Shown here one piece after another: positions 23,507 through 35,793 of a DNA stretch of 64,000 nucleotides (positions are counted from its first letter, which is position 1; each line of letters begins with the position of its first letter). A model generated the notes under the pieces. That model saw only the letters and a list, made by a program, of their open reading frames with translations, had not been told where the DNA came from and did no database searches. The stretch lies in assembly GCF_010894435.1 (NCBI RefSeq), contig NZ_JAAIXZ010000018.1, forward strand, positions 1 through 64,000. Direction: 5' to 3'. The position numbers and the translations under genes were made by a program. The DNA comes from Pyxidicoccus trucidator. Its GTDB lineage: Bacteria; Myxococcota; Myxococcia; Myxococcales; Myxococcaceae.

Positions 23507-26500
23507 TCATGCCAGTACCGGGGGCGTGGTGCCTCCCTCGTCAGGCGTGAGCGGACCCAGCGCGTCTTCCAGGAAGCGCAGTGCCCCGCGCAGGTCGGAG
23601 GAGGCCGCCTCCGCCGGAGCCCTGCGCGCCCGGTCCATGCGCCGACGCGCCGCTTCCCGGAGCTGCCTTGCCCGCTCGCGGCCTTCCGGCAGGGCTCGCG
23701 CGTCGGCCACGTCCACCGCCGCACGTAGCAGCGCGCCCAGCTCGCGCAGCACCGGGTCGTCCCGCAGCTCCATCGCCCCCTCCAGCACCACGAAGCTCGC
23801 CTCCGCCGCCGCGGGGTCTCCCAGGAAGGCCTCCACCGCCGCGCGGTGGATGGCGAAGCGCAGCGCCTGGCCTCGCGACACCCGGCCCAGGCCGGACACG
23901 GCTTCCGACAGCCGCGCCCATGCCGCCTCCATCGCGCCCAGCGCCAGCTCCGCGCGGCCCAGCTCGCCCAGCGCCGTGCCCTCCAGGAGCCGCTGGCCCA
24001 GCTGCCGTCCCATGCGCCCCGCCGACAGCAGGTGCTCGCGCGCCTCCAGCGACCGGCCCTCCTCCAACAGGAAGCAGCCCAGGTTGAGGCGCGCCAGTGC
24101 GTGGCCCACCCGGTCTCCCACGCTGGCCGAGCGGGTCATCGCATCCTCCAGCAGCGCCAGCGCCTCGCGCGTACGCCCCGCCTCGCCAATGGCCACCGCG
24201 CAGTTGGTGAGGAAGCCCACTTCGAACGTCACGTCCCCCACGTCGCGGAACAGCGCCTGCGCCGAGCGCAGGTGGGGAATGGCCGCCTCCGCGCCACAGC
24301 GCGCCTGCTCCACCAGTCCCAGGTTGCCCACCGCGTACGCCTCCAGCCAGCGGTCGCCTTCCGAGGGCAGTTGCTGCGCCTCGAGCACCAGCGCCCAGGC
24401 GCGGGCCACCTCGCCCTCGTGGCGGGCGACGATGGACAGGTCCACCAGCACGCGCTTCTCCCCCGCCACCGTCCCCAGCACCCGCAGCGTGGAGCGCGCC
24501 CCTTCCAGGTCCTTCCGCGCCGCGTCCAGGTGCCCCGCCTCCAGCAGCACCCGGCCCCGCACCGCCAGCGCCTCGGCCACCAGCAGCGGGGAGACGGCGA
24601 CGGTGCCCGCAATCGCCAGCGCCGAGTCCAGCCGCGCCAGCAGCAGACTCACCGGCCCGCGAGTGATGACCTCCGGCTCCAGCGCGACCAGCGCCTCCAG
24701 GGCCCGCTCCACGGAGCCCACCGTGGCCGGCATCACCAGCAGCGCGTTGTCACACGCGGCCAGGAGATTCTCCCGCTCCACTGCCAGCTGCCGCAGCGCC
24801 TCCGCGCCCCTGGCGCTGCGCACCCGCTCGCGCAGGCCCCGCGCCAGCGTGAGGTACCAGTCCGCATGTCGCTCCGCCAGCGTCTCCCCCCCGCGCAAAT
24901 CCCTCAGCTTCGCGGCGGCGTACTGGCGGATGCTCTCGTACTGTCCCAGTCGCGGCTCCCCGTCCGGACCCTCCGCCTCCAGCACCCGCAGCAGCGACTT
25001 GGAGCGCAGCGACTCCAGCACCTCCAGCACGTCCGGCGCGTCGGGAGGCAGCGCCAGCACCACCTCCGCCGCCTCCAGCGTGAAGCCCCCGCGGAACACC
25101 GAGCACCGCGCCAGGGCCATCTGCTCGACGGGCTCCAGCAGGTTCCAGGACCAGTCGATGGCACCGCGCAGCGTGGCCTGCCGCGCGCTGGCGTCCCGCC
25201 GGCCTCCACGCAGCAGCTCGAAGCGGCGCGGCAGCCGCTCGCGGAGCTGGCTCACGCTCAACAGCCCCATGCGCGCCGCCGCCAGCTCCAGGGCCAGGGC
25301 AATGCCGTCCAACTGGCGCACGATGTCCGCGACGCGGGGCGCGTCATCCACCGTCAACTCGAAGTCGCCCCGGGCCTCCCTCGCGCGCTGGACGAACAGG
25401 CGCACCGCGTCCGAGCGGGCAATCTCCTCCAGCCGCACTTCGCCTGGCTCCGGCACCGCCAGGGGCGTCAAATCCAACAGGCGCTCGCCGGGCAGGCGCA
25501 GCGCCTCGCGCGAGGTGGTGACGAAGCGCGCGCGCGGGGCCAGCGCCATCCACCGCCCGAGCGTGGCCGGCACGTGCCGCACCGCCTGCTCCAGGTTGTC
25601 GAGGATGACCAGCACGTCCCCGCAGTCGCCCAGCGCGCGGCCCAGCCGCTCCACCGGCTCCGTGGGGTCGCCGTCCCGCCGCAGCGCCACGCCCAGCGCC
25701 TGGCCCACGGCATGGCAGAGCGCATCCGCCGTCTGCGCCTCCGCCAGCTCGCACAGCCAGACGCCGCCCTCCCACGCGCCCGACTCCAGCTCCAGCGCGC
25801 CGAAGTGCGAGGCCAGCCGCGTCTTGCCCATGCCCCCGGGTCCCAGCACCGTGACGAGCCGCGCACCGTCCGCGAGCCAGCGCCGCAGCGTGCTCAGCTC
25901 CGAGCTCCGGCCCACCAGCCCTTCCCGCGCCACCGGCACGTTTCCCTGCCTGTCACGCGGCGCCCTCGGCGCGCCGAAGCGCCGGTCCGACAGCGAGGCA
26001 GGCAGCACCTCCACCAGCGCCACCGCGTCGTCGATGCCCTTGAGGCGGAAGGAGCCCAGCGGGCGCACCGCGGTACGGCCCAGCACCTCCACGGAGGGCG
26101 CGGCCTGGGCCCAGGCAGTGCCGCTCACCAGCACCTGTCCGCCATGGCCCGCCGACGTCACCCGCGCCGCCACGTTCACCATGCGGCCCAGGTAGTCCGT
26201 CCGGCCCGTGCGCTCGTCGACGCGGCACTCGGCCTCGCCCACGTGCACGCCCATGCGCACGCGCAGCCCCCGGTGCAGCGGCCCGCGCGGCCCCGCCTCT
26301 TCCGCCGCCTCGGGGTACATGAGGAGCTCCGCCGGCCACGGCGCGCGCAGCAGCGCCTCCTGCGCCTCCAGGCACCAGCGCAGCGCCTCCAGCACCGTGG
26401 AGAACGCAATCATGAAGGAGTCGCCCTGCGTCTTCACCTCATAGCCGGAGCCGTCCTCGAGCAGCGAGCGCAGCACCCCGTCATGCACCTCCAATGCGGC

Positions 26501-26686
26501 GCGCATGCTCGCGCCACAGCGCTCCCACAGCCGGGTGGAGCCCTGCACGTCCGTGAAGACCAGCGCCACCGTGCCCTCGGGCGGCATGGCCCGTGACGTG
26601 TCTCCCGGAGCCGCCGACGCACGGCCCGGGAGGGCTCGCAGTGTGCCCGCCGAGGGAAGAGTCAGCCTTCGCAAAGCATCTCCCAT
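23507..26686 (-). CDS. Class III nucleotide cyclase-STAND ATPase-TPR signalling protein
   Basis: About 1059 residues. An ATG at 26686 is preceded by GGGAGAGGGCG; a GTG at 26707 would add 7 residues without a binding site. Residues about 40-215 are a class III adenylate/guanylate cyclase domain: VALVFTDVQGSTRLWE (metal Asp), KTQGDSFMIAF, and YLGRMVNVAARVTS with the transition-state Asn-Arg. Next is a STAND/AAA ATPase with Walker A GPGGMGKT and Walker B VLVILDNLEQ, then LDGIALALELAAARM and a winged-helix-like segment. The last about 400 residues are TPR-type helical repeats. Such proteins turn a protein or ligand signal sensed by the repeats into cAMP/cGMP output. Both metal-binding acidic positions cannot be fully confirmed by eye. 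Confidence 0.85.
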   Translation of the reverse strand: MGDALRRLTLPSAGTLRALPGRASAAPGDTSRAMPPEGTVALVFTDVQGSTRLWERCGASMRAALEVHDGVLRSLLEDGSGYEVKTQGDSFMIAFSTVLEALRWCLEAQEALLRAPWPAELLMYPEAAEEAGPRGPLHRGLRVRMGVHVGEAECRVDERTGRTDYLGRMVNVAARVTSAGHGGQVLVSGTAWAQAAPSVEVLGRTAVRPLGSFRLKGIDDAVALVEVLPASLSDRRFGAPRAPRDRQGNVPVAREGLVGRSSELSTLRRWLADGARLVTVLGPGGMGKTRLASHFGALELESGAWEGGVWLCELAEAQTADALCHAVGQALGVALRRDGDPTEPVERLGRALGDCGDVLVILDNLEQAVRHVPATLGRWMALAPRARFVTTSREALRLPGERLLDLTPLAVPEPGEVRLEEIARSDAVRLFVQRAREARGDFELTVDDAPRVADIVRQLDGIALALELAAARMGLLSVSQLRERLPRRFELLRGGRRDASARQATLRGAIDWSWNLLEPVEQMALARCSVFRGGFTLEAAEVVLALPPDAPDVLEVLESLRSKSLLRVLEAEGPDGEPRLGQYESIRQYAAAKLRDLRGGETLAERHADWYLTLARGLRERVRSARGAEALRQLAVERENLLAACDNALLVMPATVGSVERALEALVALEPEVITRGPVSLLLARLDSALAIAGTVAVSPLLVAEALAVRGRVLLEAGHLDAARKDLEGARSTLRVLGTVAGEKRVLVDLSIVARHEGEVARAWALVLEAQQLPSEGDRWLEAYAVGNLGLVEQARCGAEAAIPHLRSAQALFRDVGDVTFEVGFLTNCAVAIGEAGRTREALALLEDAMTRSASVGDRVGHALARLNLGCFLLEEGRSLEAREHLLSAGRMGRQLGQRLLEGTALGELGRAELALGAMEAAWARLSEAVSGLGRVSRGQALRFAIHRAAVEAFLGDPAAAEASFVVLEGAMELRDDPVLRELGALLRAAVDVADARALPEGRERARQLREAARRRMDRARRAPAEAASSDLRGALRFLEDALGPLTPDEGGTTPPVLA

Positions 26687-27162: not shown

Positions 27163-28089
27163 ATGAAATCGAGACTGTTCGAGAAGACTTGCCGTGTGCT
27201 CATCACCGCGCTGCTGTTCACCGGCGGCTGCGGGCCCGTGGAAGAGGAAGCGTCCCCTCCACCGCTGACGTACGGGGTGCAGGCCGAGCTGTCGGACAAC
27301 GGGCTGTCCTTCAACGGCCTTTCGTTCAACGGGCTGTCCTTCAACGGCCTTTCGTTCAACGGGCTGTCCTTCAACGGCCTGTCCACGAGCAACTTCAACA
27401 CGTGGTTCCAGGCGGACCCGGCGCTCGCCAGCGGGGTGATGCGCTACCTGGTCCGCTGCGCGGTGCCGGCGGGACAGACGCGCACGTACACGTCGTCCAC
27501 CGGCCATCACTACGCGTGGGCCGGCGAGCTGGGACTGGCTCCAGCGTGGGCCTCCGGCGCGGCCCCCACGCTGTACGAGCAGCAGGTGGTGTCCGCGTGC
27601 CTGGCGGCGCACGCCAACCGGCTCGCGACGGAGGTGTCCATCTCCGTCCTGGGCCGGGACGCGGGGGGAGCGGCCATTCCCTATACGTCGGCGGAGCTGG
27701 CCTCGCACTCCCGGCGGGAGTCCTGCTTCTTCGGCAACGTCTTCACCGGGCAGGGCCTCTACGTGGGCACCGAGCGCGAGCCGCTGGGCCCCAACGAGAG
27801 CACCAGCCGGGCCTGCGGCGCCCTGCTCCACGGCGGCACCGAGGCCGCGACGCCCTGCGCGCCCCTGGTGCATGTGGGTGACTGCACGGCGTTCTGCACG
27901 CTGGACAGCAGCGGGCACTTCTTCTCGTCCTGCACCTACAACGGCACCACCTACCACCGGCCCCTCACCACCCGGCTGCGCGTCGAGGACATCCATAAAT
28001 GCGGGGACACCCACTGCCAGGCCACGGAGCGGTGCGGGACCTCCTATCGATATGACAGCTGTGGACTGGACTGCGGTTCCTGCCCCTGA
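27163..28089 (+). CDS. NGLSF-repeat lipoprotein, paralogue A
   Basis: 308 residues. Lipobox FTGGCGPV (Cys23). After a short linker, residues 46-74 are six tandem NGLSF/NGLS units. Then comes a conserved body shared with the paralogue at 28721-29746: NTWFQADPALASGVMRYL, CAVPAGQTRTYT, LGLAPAWASGA, EQQVVSACLAAHAN and RRESCFFGNVF. A Cys-rich C-terminus (KCGDTHCQATERC, SCGLDCGSC) looks like a small disulfide knot. Outer-surface location is likely. No known family; function unknown. Ends 33 bases before the AlgH-like gene. Confidence 0.72.
   Translation: MKSRLFEKTCRVLITALLFTGGCGPVEEEASPPPLTYGVQAELSDNGLSFNGLSFNGLSFNGLSFNGLSFNGLSTSNFNTWFQADPALASGVMRYLVRCAVPAGQTRTYTSSTGHHYAWAGELGLAPAWASGAAPTLYEQQVVSACLAAHANRLATEVSISVLGRDAGGAAIPYTSAELASHSRRESCFFGNVFTGQGLYVGTEREPLGPNESTSRACGALLHGGTEAATPCAPLVHVGDCTAFCTLDSSGHFFSSCTYNGTTYHRPLTTRLRVEDIHKCGDTHCQATERCGTSYRYDSCGLDCGSCP
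27298..27384 (+). repeat. 15-bp tandem coding repeat (NGLSF units)
   Basis: Six units of 15 bp, the last one truncated, alternating AACGGGCTGTCCTTC and AACGGCCTTTCGTTC. This makes a 30-bp higher-order repeat in exact copies, so the array looks recently expanded and could vary by slippage. Confidence 0.9.
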
Positions 28090-28122
28090 GTCCCGGGAGG
28101 TGCCTCCTCCCGGCCGGCTATA

Positions 28123-28701
28123 GTGGGCCGGGTGAAGGGGCTCGCCCGACGGCACCTCGTGGTCCTGCTCGCCTGTGCGTTGCTGATGCTCGTGGCCCTG
28201 CCGCGCATCATCGGCGGGCTCAAGGCGGATGAGGCTCCGTTCCGAGCGCCGGCACCGGGCCTCCTGCTGGTGGCGCGGCCGCACCGGGTGAGCGGCCTGT
28301 TCGACCAGACGGTGGTGCTCCTGCTGGAGACAGGCGGCGAGCGCACGTGGGGGCTCGTGCTCAACCGTGCGCGGCCCCGCCCGGCGGAGGTGCCGACGAC
28401 GGGCGTGGACCGCTGGGGCGGCCCCGTGCATCCCGAGCACCGCATCACCCTGGCGCGCGGGGACACGGTCCCCGCGCAGGCCCGCCGCGTCTTCGAGGAC
28501 CTGTCCTGGTACGAGGGCACGCGGGAGCCAGGCGCGTCCGGGGGCACGTCACTCACCTTCGCGGGCATGGCGGCCTGGGGCCCGGGCCAGCTCGAGGAGG
28601 AGCTGGCCCAGGGCGCGTGGTGGCTGGTGGAGGGCAGCACCCGCGCCGTGTTCACCGCGCCCGAGGCGTCATGGGCGGAGCACGCGGCGCGGCGACTGTG
28701 A
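28123..28701 (+). CDS. AlgH/YqgE (UPF0301) family protein with N-terminal membrane segment
   Basis: 192 residues. A hydrophobic stretch (HLVVLLACALLMLVALPRIIGGL) precedes the UPF0301 fold: PGLLLVARPHRVSGLFDQTVVLLLE, WGLVLNRA, GGPVHPEHRI and AAWGPGQLEEELAQGAWWLV. AlgH/YqgE proteins are usually cytoplasmic and lack any membrane segment, so this copy is probably anchored with the domain on one face of the inner membrane. The start is uncertain (GTG at 28123, or GTG at 28132). It sits between two NGLSF lipoproteins, 33 bases after one and 19 bases before the end of the other. Confidence 0.75.
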   Translation: MGRVKGLARRHLVVLLACALLMLVALPRIIGGLKADEAPFRAPAPGLLLVARPHRVSGLFDQTVVLLLETGGERTWGLVLNRARPRPAEVPTTGVDRWGGPVHPEHRITLARGDTVPAQARRVFEDLSWYEGTREPGASGGTSLTFAGMAAWGPGQLEEELAQGAWWLVEGSTRAVFTAPEASWAEHAARRL

Positions 28702-28720
28702 CGGCCGCCCCGCACCGGCC

Positions 28721-29746
28721 TCAGCCGCAGGTGCCGCAGTCCTCCTTGCAGGAGAGGAAGTCGTTCTTGTCCCCGCAGGACTCGGTGGGCTGGCAGATGC
28801 CGTCACCGCACTTGTAGAGGCTGCGCCGGTCCAGCCGCGTGGTGAGCGACGGGTAGGTGACACCGTTCCAGGTGCACGACGCATAGAAGGACTTCGACTC
28901 ATCCATCACACAGTGTCGCGCGCACCGGCCAATGTAGACGAGCGGCGCGCAGCGGTGGCGGTTGAGCTCCAGCTCCTCGGGCGGGTCCTGCTCGCCGCCG
29001 TCGAGCTCCTCCGCCGCTTCGTCCTCCTTGTCACCCCGACTGGCCGCCACCGAGCAGGCCCGCGACGAGCTCTCGCGTGGCTTGAGCCGCCCCTTGTCGC
29101 GGCCCACGTAGACGCCCTCGCCACTGAAGAGGTTGCCGAAGAAGCAGGACTCCCTCCACTGGTACTGCTTCAGCTCCTCGTCCGTGACGGAGATGGCCAC
29201 TCCATCCGCCCGGCGCCCGAGCACGGAGATGGGGACCCGCTGGTTGTACTTGTTCGCATGCGCGGCCAGGCAGGCGGAGACCACCTGCTGCTCGCGCACC
29301 GTCGCCGTCGCTCCGCCCGCCCACGCCGGAGCCAGGCCCAGCCCCCCCACCCAGCCATACGTGCGGCCTTCCGCCGTGTACGTGCGCACCTCCCCGGCCG
29401 GGACGGCGCAGTGGACCAGGTAGCGCATCACCCCGCTGGCGAGCGTCGGGTTCGACTGGAACCAGGAAGCGAAGGCGCTGCTCGACAGCCCGTTGAACGA
29501 CAGCCCGTTGAACGACAGCCCGTTGAACGACAGGCCATTGAACGACAGCCCGTTCACGGAGAGGCCATTGTCGGTCTCCAGGGCCTGGGCCGTGTTCGCT
29601 GCTCCCGCCGACGTGTCGGCCGGCGCCCACACCCCGCGCTCCTCTGTCGGGCCGCAGCCCACCCCGAGCAGCAGCACCGCCAGGCACAGCCCCACTCCCG
29701 GCCCGACGCGGCGGCACCGGCGCTCTTCCATCCGTATGAGAGTCAT
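28721..29746 (-). CDS. NGLSF-repeat lipoprotein, paralogue B
   Basis: 341 residues from the ATG at 29746, chosen because ACGAGGAAG precedes it; an in-frame ATG 30 bases upstream lacks a site. Lipobox LLLGVGCGP (Cys31). Six NGLSx units follow, then the same body as paralogue A (ASWFQSNPTLASGVMRYL, CAVPAGEVRTYT, LGLAPAWAGGA, EQQVVSACLAAHAN, WRESCFFGNLF). An acidic insertion of about 30 residues (DKEDEAAEELDGGEQDPPEE) is absent from A. The Cys-rich tail is KCGDGICQPTESC then CKEDCGTCG. Convergent with the AlgH-like gene. Function unknown. Confidence 0.72.
   Translation of the reverse strand: MTLIRMEERRCRRVGPGVGLCLAVLLLGVGCGPTEERGVWAPADTSAGAANTAQALETDNGLSVNGLSFNGLSFNGLSFNGLSFNGLSSSAFASWFQSNPTLASGVMRYLVHCAVPAGEVRTYTAEGRTYGWVGGLGLAPAWAGGATATVREQQVVSACLAAHANKYNQRVPISVLGRRADGVAISVTDEELKQYQWRESCFFGNLFSGEGVYVGRDKGRLKPRESSSRACSVAASRGDKEDEAAEELDGGEQDPPEELELNRHRCAPLVYIGRCARHCVMDESKSFYASCTWNGVTYPSLTTRLDRRSLYKCGDGICQPTESCGDKNDFLSCKEDCGTCG
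29480..29569 (-). repeat. 15-bp tandem coding repeat in paralogue B
   Basis: Six 15-bp units on the minus strand, mostly AACGGGCTGTCGTTC or AATGGCCTGTCGTTC, encoding NGLSV then NGLSF copies. The same protein repeat as paralogue A but with different codon choices, so it expanded independently or diverged. Confidence 0.88.
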
Positions 29747-30095
29747 CCGCTTCCTCGTGAGAGTCTTTGGGGACACCGGACGAGGCGCTCCGCCGCATCC
29801 GGAGGGGCGAACGGGGGCAGGAAGGAACGCGGAGAACCCCTCGCGAAAGAGATATCCCTCTTTCTCTCAACCCATAAGCCAACCAGCACCGAAGGCGGAG
29901 ACCTCCCTCCATGGGCAACCTTCGACGCGTCGCTCGGCGGACACGGAGGTTCGACCTTCCGCCAGCAGTCCTCGCGTCCACGCCGTCGAGGGTCATCCTC
30001 CCGACAGAGTCTCCCTGCCGAGAGGCGGAAACAGCCGGAGCGCGGGAACGTGGCTTTCTTCACAGGCTTCGCCGTGGGAGCCTGCTTCTCCCCGC
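29747..30095. other. 349-bp divergent intergenic region
   Basis: Separates NGLSF paralogue B from the hypothetical secreted gene at 30096. No gene seen. GAAAGAG and CTCTTTC (29845-29864, 6-base spacer) form an inverted repeat in a locally A+T-richer patch that is a likely promoter or operator. Confidence 0.4.
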
Positions 30096-33045: not shown

Positions 33046-35793
33046 TCAGGCCGCGTCGGGCTCGTCCCGGATGAAGGAGAAGCCCTCCGACGCGTCCAGC
33101 CGGTAGCCGGGGTCCTCGAACACCACCCGCGTGCCGGTGCCCTCCAGCAGCTCGCGCAGGTAGCTCACGTGGACGCGCAGCGAGTTGTCGTGCAGGCGTG
33201 GGTCATGGTCCGTGTCCCACATGGCGCGCACGCACTCCTCCTTCGACAGCGTGCGTCCCGGCTGCCGGGCCAGCGCGTACAGCAGCCGACGCGGGAGGGC
33301 CCGCTTCGCCAGGGACACGGTGCGCCCCGCGACACGCAGCTCGTGCTGGCGCGCGTCCACCACCACCGCGTCTGGCGCGCCAGCGGAGGCGTCCAGGCCG
33401 GGCCTCGGGTCCCCTGGCGCCGCCGCCGGGGATGGGGCCAGCGCGCGGGCCAGCTCCGGAATCAGCTCCGGGTCCACCTCGCCCTCCGCGGCTTCGCGCG
33501 CCGCGGCCTCCAGCGCCGCCTGGGCCTCCGCGCCCCGCTCGGCCCGCTGGTGGAGCAGGGCCCGCGACAGGTGGCCCAGCGCGCGCTCCAGCGCGAAGTC
33601 CTCTCCGCGCGCCAGCGGCTCCAGCGAGGCGAGCAGCCCCGTGACTCGCACGCTGTCGCCCTGCGCCGCGGCCTGGAGCGCGGCGAGCGCACGCTGACGT
33701 GCGGCCACTCCCGGGCGCACCTCGCGCGGCTCCACGGTGACGGGCAGCGCCACCTGCCGCTTCACGTCCGAGGCGCGCGCCACCTCCGCCGCGCGGGCCA
33801 GGCCGCTCGCGCCCCGGGCCCGGGCGTCGGACTCCACCACGTCCAGCAGCGCCAGCCCCTCCGCGCGCCGGCCCAGCTCCAGCAGCATGCGTCCGGCGGC
33901 GACGCGGGAGAGGTGACGGATGAAGAGGTAGCCCGCGTGCTCGGCCCGGGCCTCCGTCTCCCGCAGCTCGGCGAGCGCGGCCCGGCGCTCGCCCCGGTCC
34001 GCCCGGCACCACGCGGCGATGCAGTCCAGCTCCAGCGCCAGCCGGGGGGCGCCGAGCTGCCCCAGCCGCTCGCGCGCGTTCGACAGCGCGGTCTCCGCCT
34101 CCGTGAAGCGCCCCAGCCGGCTGAGGATGCCCGCGGACAGGGCCGTCACCATCGGCCCCCGCGAGTCGAGCGGCGTGCCCTCCAGCAGGGACATGCACCG
34201 GGCCAGCGGCTCCGCCAGCTCGCTGTCGCGGCCCTCAATCCAGAGCATCAGCACGCGGGCATACGCGCACCAGCCCAGCACCCGCCGGTCCTCCGACGCG
34301 GCCGCCGCGCCATCCACCATCTCCAGGGACTCGGCCATCCGGTCCTGGAAGAAGCGCAGCGCGGCCCAGGCCAGCAACTGCTGGAGGAAGACCTCCGGCG
34401 CGCGCGGCATGGGCATGGACCCGAGCGTCCGCTCACACGTGTCCAGCTCCAGCGAGAAGAGCGCCACGCGCACCAGCACCGTGCCCACGTCCTCCCGGAG
34501 CGCGTCGTCGCCGCCGGACGGCGCGGTCTCCAGCGAGGCGCGCAGCTCCCGCAGCTCCGTCAGGGCGTGACGCAGGTCGAGCAGGCGCACCAGCGCGCGC
34601 GCACGGGCCAGGCGCACCCCGGGCGGGCGCGGCTCCGCGGGCAGGGAGTCGAGCAAGGAGAGCAGCTCCGCGGCGGCACCGTGCCGCACCAGCGGCTCCG
34701 CCTGCTCGACGATGAAGGCCGCGCGCTCCGCGTCACGGCCGAGCGCCTGGAGGTGGCGGCACATCGCGCGCACGCGCACCACGGTGGGCAGGGGCTCGCG
34801 CGCGAGCAGCGCCAGCAGCGCCTCGTGCGCGGCGCGCACCTCGTCCGGATTGAGCAGCGACGTGAGCGCCTCGCGCACCAGGTCGTGGACGCCGTGCCGG
34901 CCCTGCGCGTCCGTCTCCACCAGCAGCCTCGCCGCCAGCCGCCGCAGCACGTCGCCAGAGCCACTCGCGGTAGCGCCACTCGCGGTAGCGCCACCCGTGG
35001 TAGCGCCACTCGCGGTAGCGCCACCCGTGGGCGAGTCACTCCCAGGTAGCACGCCCTGGAGCGCCCGCGCCGGCAGCGGCAGCTCGCTGAGCGCCAGCAC
35101 CGCCGCCAGCCGTCTCTCATCCCCGGGCAGCGCCGCCAGCGCCGCGCGCACCGGCTCCTCGTCGCCCGCGTCATCGGCATGTGCGCGGCGCAGGAGGAAG
35201 GGCAGTCCCCGGGAGCGGGCCCACGCGGAGTCAAAGCCCTCGCGCGTGCCGTACAGCGAGTCCAGTTGCTCCCACAGGGCGCGGGCGGCGGGCTCCGGCA
35301 GGCCGTCCAGGCGAAGCTCGAAGCGGTCCGGGCTGGTGGTGCGTCGGGGCACCGCCTCGCGAGAGGTGGCCAGCAGCGCCCCCTGCCGCAGGCGCCCGCC
35401 CACCTCCTCCAGCAGCGCGGCGCGCTCCTCGGGCTTCAGTCCATGCAGGTCGTCCAGCACGCACAGCGCGCGGCGTGCCTCCAGTTCGCGCGCCAGGTCC
35501 TCCAGGCGTGACGCATCCGACAGGGCCTGCGCGACGGGGGCTTCGCGCAGCAGGCGGCGCACGTCGTCCACCACCGCGTCCAGCGTGTCACCGGGACGGA
35601 TGCGGCGGTGCACGACGGGGCCCCGGTAGCGCGCGGCCACGGCCGCCGCCAGCGCGGACTTGCCTACACCGGGCAGGCCGTAGACGACGCCCGTCCGGAC
35701 ACGCCGCAGCATGCTGCCCAGGCGCTGCACCTCCTCGGCACGGCCCACGAAGACAGCGGGGGGCCCCAGGCCCTGACGAGACGACGTGTGCAT
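33046..35793 (-). CDS. STAND ATPase with TPR-like repeats and C-terminal OmpR-type DNA-binding domain
   Basis: 915 residues from the ATG at 35793. Walker A is GLPGVGKSA (about residues 39-47), and Walker B is CVLDDLHG. A low-complexity Gly/Ala/Thr/Ser insert (GGATASGATTGG type) sits near residue 265. The middle is helical repeats. At the C-terminus lies an OmpR/PhoB winged helix (RVAGRTVSLAKRALPRRLLYALARQPG, HDNSLRVHVSYLRELLEGTG, PGYRLD). LuxR- and SARP-type STAND regulators have a similar plan but differ in the DNA-binding domain or its position. Likely a ligand-triggered transcription activator. Ends 9 bases from the convergent histidine kinase gene. Confidence 0.8.
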   Translation of the reverse strand: MHTSSRQGLGPPAVFVGRAEEVQRLGSMLRRVRTGVVYGLPGVGKSALAAAVAARYRGPVVHRRIRPGDTLDAVVDDVRRLLREAPVAQALSDASRLEDLARELEARRALCVLDDLHGLKPEERAALLEEVGGRLRQGALLATSREAVPRRTTSPDRFELRLDGLPEPAARALWEQLDSLYGTREGFDSAWARSRGLPFLLRRAHADDAGDEEPVRAALAALPGDERRLAAVLALSELPLPARALQGVLPGSDSPTGGATASGATTGGATASGATASGSGDVLRRLAARLLVETDAQGRHGVHDLVREALTSLLNPDEVRAAHEALLALLAREPLPTVVRVRAMCRHLQALGRDAERAAFIVEQAEPLVRHGAAAELLSLLDSLPAEPRPPGVRLARARALVRLLDLRHALTELRELRASLETAPSGGDDALREDVGTVLVRVALFSLELDTCERTLGSMPMPRAPEVFLQQLLAWAALRFFQDRMAESLEMVDGAAAASEDRRVLGWCAYARVLMLWIEGRDSELAEPLARCMSLLEGTPLDSRGPMVTALSAGILSRLGRFTEAETALSNARERLGQLGAPRLALELDCIAAWCRADRGERRAALAELRETEARAEHAGYLFIRHLSRVAAGRMLLELGRRAEGLALLDVVESDARARGASGLARAAEVARASDVKRQVALPVTVEPREVRPGVAARQRALAALQAAAQGDSVRVTGLLASLEPLARGEDFALERALGHLSRALLHQRAERGAEAQAALEAAAREAAEGEVDPELIPELARALAPSPAAAPGDPRPGLDASAGAPDAVVVDARQHELRVAGRTVSLAKRALPRRLLYALARQPGRTLSKEECVRAMWDTDHDPRLHDNSLRVHVSYLRELLEGTGTRVVFEDPGYRLDASEGFSFIRDEPDAA
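34960..35034 (-). repeat. 15-bp tandem coding repeat (GATAS-type units) in the STAND regulator
   Basis: Five 15-bp units on the plus strand, GCCACTCGCGGTAGC or GCCACCCGTGGTAGC, the last one diverged. They encode a Gly/Ala/Thr/Ser linker between the ATPase and the helical repeats. Near-identical copies suggest recent expansion. Confidence 0.85.

Follow-up and report, generated by a model that had tools for sequence, protein, structure and literature searches.

Two putative NGLSx-repeat lipoproteins beside an AlgH paralog in Pyxidicoccus trucidator and their large myxobacterial family

What are the two repeat-bearing lipoproteins A and B of Pyxidicoccus trucidator, what is their repeat for, and does the AlgH-like protein encoded between them (AlgH2) act on them? 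Myxobacteria live by cell contact, through swarming, predation and membrane exchange, and to our knowledge a large part of their outer-membrane lipoproteins still has no name. The locus lies in the window, that is the whole stretch of 64,000 nucleotides that was analysed (contig NZ_JAAIXZ010000018.1), and comprises the following features.

27163..28089, + strand: gene A, an NGLSx-repeat lipoprotein of 308 aa; the predicted lipid-attachment cysteine is residue 23
27298..27387, + strand: array of A, residues 46-75, six units (NGLSF x5, then NGLST)
27388..27996, + strand: cysteine-rich body of A, residues about 76-278, 8 conserved cysteines
28000..28086, + strand: tail of A, residues 280-308, six cysteines (CGDxxCxxxExC...C..DCG.C)
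28090..28122, + strand: gap of 33 bases between A and AlgH2, with a strong GC hairpin reaching into the AlgH2 start (-30.2 kcal/mol, z -3.7)
28123..28701, + strand: AlgH2, an AlgH/YqgE paralog of 192 aa that starts with a hydrophobic helix; in our judgement a neighbour outside the lipoprotein system
28721..29746, - strand: gene B, a second NGLSx-repeat lipoprotein of 341 aa, with a low-complexity acidic insert
29480..29569, - strand: array of B, six units (NGLSV, NGLSF x4, NGLSS)

A and B within a family of lipoproteins

The coordinates and strands match the gene order given in a preliminary description of this DNA, in which A and the AlgH-like gene are co-directional and B is convergent. That description had also taken A and B for paralogous lipoproteins with six NGLSx units each, a shared body and a CGDxxCxxxExC tail, and all of this was borne out. 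The two proteins are 57% identical over their whole length, and their signal regions end in a cysteine, preceded by FTGG in A and by LGVG in B. Both contain the body motifs, including WFQxxPxLASGVMRYL and ESCFFGN, and a tail that reads CGDTHCQATERC in A and CGDGICQPTESC in B. For B there are two start candidates, an ATG at 29746 or a GTG upstream at 29776. The locus is flanked by a nucleotide cyclase domain fused to an ATPase and TPR protein (23507-26587) and by an ATPase with a transcriptional-regulator domain (33046-35793).

From sequence comparison, A and B belong to a large myxobacterial lipoprotein family that has no name as yet. The own genome encodes seven of its members, namely A, B, one each on contigs C5, C12, C1 and C4, and a divergent one on C9. 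A search with A over 96 genomes of the taxonomic family found members in 66, each of them with 1 to 15 matches, and a 33-row profile found it in 85 of the 195 genomes of the phylum sample. Some member was present in all 27 genomes of the genus; of the 26 searched besides the own genome, 14 had an A ortholog (E below 1e-120). Genes for which no start was located do not appear in the member listing. The alignment holds 33 of the 43 listed members; omitted were L011, L043, L045, L046 (B, uncertain starts), and L051-L054, L056 and L061 (near-duplicates). In the tree, B formed its own monophyletic group and the A clade joined the clade of the C5 copy, not B (fork support 90/78, which is modest), so that a fresh tandem duplication giving A and B was not supported. 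The C9 type (L011, also L168, L169 and L176) had no array but did have the first half of the body, with an hhalign value of 97.9% across 76 columns.

Members are laid out as a signal region with a conserved cysteine, a tether of about 20-25 residues, a six-unit array, the body with its eight conserved cysteines and the six-cysteine tail. Fifteen cysteine columns, that of the lipid cysteine included, are at least 90% conserved in the 33-row alignment, and Cys23 was kept in 33/33 aligned members. AlphaFold2 on this alignment gave a mean pLDDT of 72.9 and a pTM of 0.73. In the body, most positions of residues 91-200 and 241-270 exceeded a pLDDT of 90; confidence was low for the signal region, the tail and the greater part of the array. 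Within the array pLDDT was about 42-60 across most of its length, with a rise to 76 towards the end, and the model does not establish a rod shape such as the right-handed quadrilateral beta-helix of pentapeptide repeats.

The preliminary description had called for a profile search with the body and with the repeats, and had named membership of the body in a well-known family as grounds for refutation. In Pfam, NCBIfam and PHROGs, any matches were to low-complexity models or fell under the cut-off, and membership of a named family was rejected. The PADLOC defence library likewise gave no match to the body. Fold searches with the body found no match in the PDB at E below 4.9, with no VIA Z of at least 2 among 115 aligned chains, and no significant match in BFVD (best E 0.34); a profile search of PDB sequences was not significant either (best E 0.48). 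In these searches the modelled body thus matches neither a named family nor a solved fold, which falls short of proving a new fold. Reading the alignment by eye, we found no likely catalytic set among the family-conserved residues that is retained in distant members. In open-access full text, we found no paper with the repeat strings, with 'ADYC domain' (a second lipoprotein head, see below) or with anything on the lipoprotein family. The analysis thereby defines one multi-copy lipoprotein family, with a head that is confidently modelled and has no solved counterpart.

The repeat array

A pattern of two array units occurred 33 times in the 12.67 Mb genome, always within the lipoprotein family, and not once in the reversed control, indicating that the arrays are non-random. 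The general NG-x3 pattern over four units was found at 22 places in the same genome, 21 in the lipoprotein family and 1 in an ADYC protein (reversed control 0). In some genomes of the wider sample, for instance G053, G090, G093, G094 and G095, the reversed control matched more often than the pattern itself, and we therefore relied on the NG-x3 pattern in the own genome only.

The units are five residues long and of the NG-L/M-S/T-x type. Within one array the fifth position mostly holds a single residue, F, V, A, L or T, and paralog groups differ in which one. Of the 42 members counted, 34 have six units and 5 have five, while four, seven and nine units occur in one member each; L011, which lacks an array, was left out of the count and the tree. 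Between neighbouring units we counted 401 synonymous and 67 replacement codon differences (syn:non 6.0, where about 0.37:1 is expected from the codons), and 387 against 18 when the variable fifth codon was excluded; these counts are given without a probability, since the members are related and the units are not independent. Only 34 of the 207 neighbouring pairs had identical DNA. The synonymous excess and the constancy of six units show that the array peptide is maintained, and in the NGLSx group also its length. In line with what the preliminary description had proposed, the repeat peptide itself is under purifying selection.

The array length is not universal, as distant relatives have none (L011, L168, L169 and L176), about 11-13 NGLMP units or about 40 NGINT units. 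Relatives with NGLMP, NGIMT, NGVFT, NGINT or NGLLS arrays differ greatly in array length. L162 and L164 carry long NGVFT or NGINT runs ahead of the same body (41 units counted in L164); a lipobox cysteine was not seen in L162. Four secreted proteins of one genome, L166, L180, L185 and L186, are encoded in a tandem cluster (G141, contig C107); they combine about 11-13 NGLMP units with a body-like region and a long additional C-terminal region. L179 and L184 (G044, contig C13) have long NGLLS arrays and the body, followed by putative beta-propeller type repeats.

AlgH2 and its association with the lipoproteins

AlgH2 matched the Pfam family DUF179/AlgH (PF02622) with an E of 3.5e-16 and 60 bits, against a cut-off of 27, whereas its best score with the NCBIfam YqgE equivalogs (60 bits) was far under their cut-offs of about 200-280. 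A second, better-scoring AlgH copy is encoded on contig C1. The hydrophobic stretch of AlgH2 lies behind basic residues, with a mean hydropathy of 2.73 over 19 residues, and this N-terminal anchor was kept in 20/20 AlgH2 orthologs (L076 read with a later start than called). By the positive-inside rule, the AlgH2 domain would face the periplasm. Strong matches to AlgH2 (E 6e-38 or better) were found in 20 of the 96 family genomes, weaker matches only in 72 and none in 4; the weaker matches fit the canonical copy, as expected. By its sequence, AlgH2 is a distinct AlgH/YqgE paralog.

The preliminary description had suggested that the anchored AlgH-like protein recognises or controls the lipoproteins, and had proposed conservation of the three-gene order as a check, with a lack of co-conservation as what would refute the idea. 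We scored the presence of A, B and AlgH2 by tblastn, because the ORF caller mis-calls some ORFs (e.g. L109, L114, L118 and L123). Among the 27 genomes of the genus, an A ortholog (E below 1e-120) and AlgH2 occurred together in 3, A only in 12, AlgH2 only in 11 and neither in 1, a negative association with a Fisher p of 3.4e-4, uncorrected for relatedness. The order was not co-conserved: B lies beside A in 7 genomes, with AlgH2 between them in 3 (the own genome, G068 and G079) and without it in 4. Conversely, AlgH2 had neither A nor B nearby in 17/17 other genomes read (tblastn, flanks of about 6-8 kb), 11 of the genus and six of other genera. Genes for a 419-aa protein and for a histidine kinase lie downstream of a stretch that contains, depending on the genome, A, AlgH2 and B, A and B, A alone or AlgH2 alone, and in the AlgH2-only regions of the genus the kinase gene was present in 11/11 and the 419-aa gene was called in 10/11. 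On the A tree, the presence of AlgH2 is patchy. Differential loss from a shared locus would explain these patterns better than a functional unit.

We also looked for signs that A and AlgH2 are co-transcribed. No promoter-like site was found in the search made for one, and here the strong hairpin separates the two genes; a comparably strong fold is absent from the A-AlgH2 gap of the two other genomes with the same gene order. Strong hairpins also occur in the A-B gaps of G069 and G054 (z about -2.4), where they are perhaps terminators for the convergent genes.

The proposal that the three genes form a unit, in which the outward-facing anchored domain of AlgH2 binds or controls both surface lipoproteins, can draw on the co-directional arrangement of A and AlgH2 with a gap of 33 bases, on the order kept in three genomes and on the anchor preserved in every ortholog read. 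Against these stand the 12 genus genomes with A and no AlgH2 and the 11 with the reverse, in which the same downstream genes lie beside AlgH2, as well as the six genomes of other genera and the patchy distribution across the A tree. The proposal is thus largely refuted by non-co-conservation, and we regard it as very improbable. As all 27 genus genomes carry some family member elsewhere, AlgH2 could depend on such members in trans. On the gene-order data and the patchy co-presence, AlgH2 was rejected as a partner; it is probably an unrelated neighbour and not a controller of the lipoproteins, which removes a misleading lead.

Predicted outer-membrane display and related systems

The family harbours a lipobox with an invariant cysteine; because A and B depart from the usual residue at -3, their lipid attachment is predicted. 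Lipoproteins of M. xanthus with neither Lys at +2 nor Ala at +7 are reported to be sorted to the outer membrane (PMC5562445). A has G at +2 and E at +7, and B has G and R at these positions; Lys at +2 was found in 0/42 members and Ala at +7 in only 3/42. Under the rule as given there, outer-membrane sorting is predicted for the family.

With moderate confidence, we propose that A and B are outer-membrane display proteins consisting of a lipid anchor, a tether, a short repeat rod and an exchangeable disulfide-rich head. Their route to the outer membrane would run through signal peptidase II and the Lol system. Related in form to the solenoid of pentapeptide repeats, the array would make up a short rod that keeps a disulfide-stabilised, non-enzymatic binding head away from the membrane. 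The targets bound may differ among paralogs, and a role in contact or with prey is conceivable. The AlgH2 gene would be a chance neighbour with its own history.

The array is also found with a second head, ADYC. L170, which was found by its lipobox and array match to the profile, has an ADYC head (E 3.3e-51) and an array of NGVSL x8 that matched Pfam Pentapeptide (PF00805) at E 1.5e-9, above the cut-off. The own genome encodes an ADYC lipoprotein with NGRNL units, and 10 of the 12 ADYC loci read had an NG-x3 array behind a lipobox-like start (L219 and L220 had no array). Homology between the body and ADYC was not detected (hhalign probability 4.6%), and A and B gave no match to Pfam ADYC (PF20032). 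ADYC was present in 65 of the 96 family genomes, and the lipoprotein family in the same 65 and in G088; this concordance closely follows one large-genome clade and may reflect nothing more. An equivalent anchor and array on a second head suggests that the array is a general display or linker module, and makes deletion or swapping of the array a direct test of its role as a module. A wider reading, that lipobox and NG-x3 array are a dedicated myxobacterial display or delivery module, carried by two unrelated cysteine-rich heads that the same genomes keep side by side, and serving to set ten or so paralogous heads on the outer membrane for cell-cell or prey contact, is tentative and rather doubtful.

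Two other explanations concern the array and the proteins as a whole. If the array were just a low-complexity linker, prone to slippage and lacking a specific role, its low-confidence prediction, its widely variable length outside the NGLSx family and its fifth residue, homogeneous in most arrays and different among paralogs as unit copying would give, would all be accounted for; exactly six units in 34/42 members, a syn:non of 6.0 where 0.37 is expected and identical DNA in only 34/207 neighbouring pairs are not, and we consider it unlikely. Still less probable in our view is a part for the lipoproteins in TraAB outer-membrane exchange or in kin competition, where they would act as cargo or factors in the manner of SitA and the NG array would serve for transfer or escort. 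Myxobacteria are reported to exchange outer-membrane lipoproteins (PMC5562445; PMC3325183), the family is multi-copy and clade-restricted, and an equivalent module occurs on two unrelated heads. However, no toxin or nuclease domain was matched in the lipoproteins, their C-terminal head is conserved and not polymorphic, and no conserved immunity-like partner lies beside A or B.

The proposed display proteins and their neighbour can be compared with several known systems. SitA exchange toxins have a variable C-terminal toxin domain together with sitB and an immunity gene, whereas the C-terminus of A and B is conserved and no such neighbours were seen. AlgH2 shares the core domain of canonical YqgE/AlgH, but adds an N-terminal anchor and does not have the MGVDPAML segment with which the canonical copy differs at the C-terminus. 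The five-residue xGLTT-like units of the GLTT repeat (PF01744) resemble NGLSx in what is a composition-type match, and GLTT has no counterpart of the A/B body; low-complexity repeat models matched part of the aligned members (Lamprin 20/33, GLTT 10/33), and a relative with many NGVFT units matched GLTT strongly.

Pentapeptide repeat proteins (PF00805) have the five-residue period in common with the NGLSx arrays, which comprise six units only and gave no match to the model (0/33 aligned members at E 0.1). In the classical pentapeptide consensus the position held by Leu in NGLSx is usually small, and in the classical helix geometry six units make only about one and a half coils; the same consensus fits the NG-x-x-L arrays of the ADYC type. 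ADYC lipoproteins (PF20032) have such arrays (NGSDL, NGRNL), unlike NGLSx, and a head that is not detectably homologous to the A/B body, but share with the A family a lipobox-type N-terminus, an NG-x3 array, a cysteine-rich C-terminal domain, multiple copies and the same 65-genome clade.
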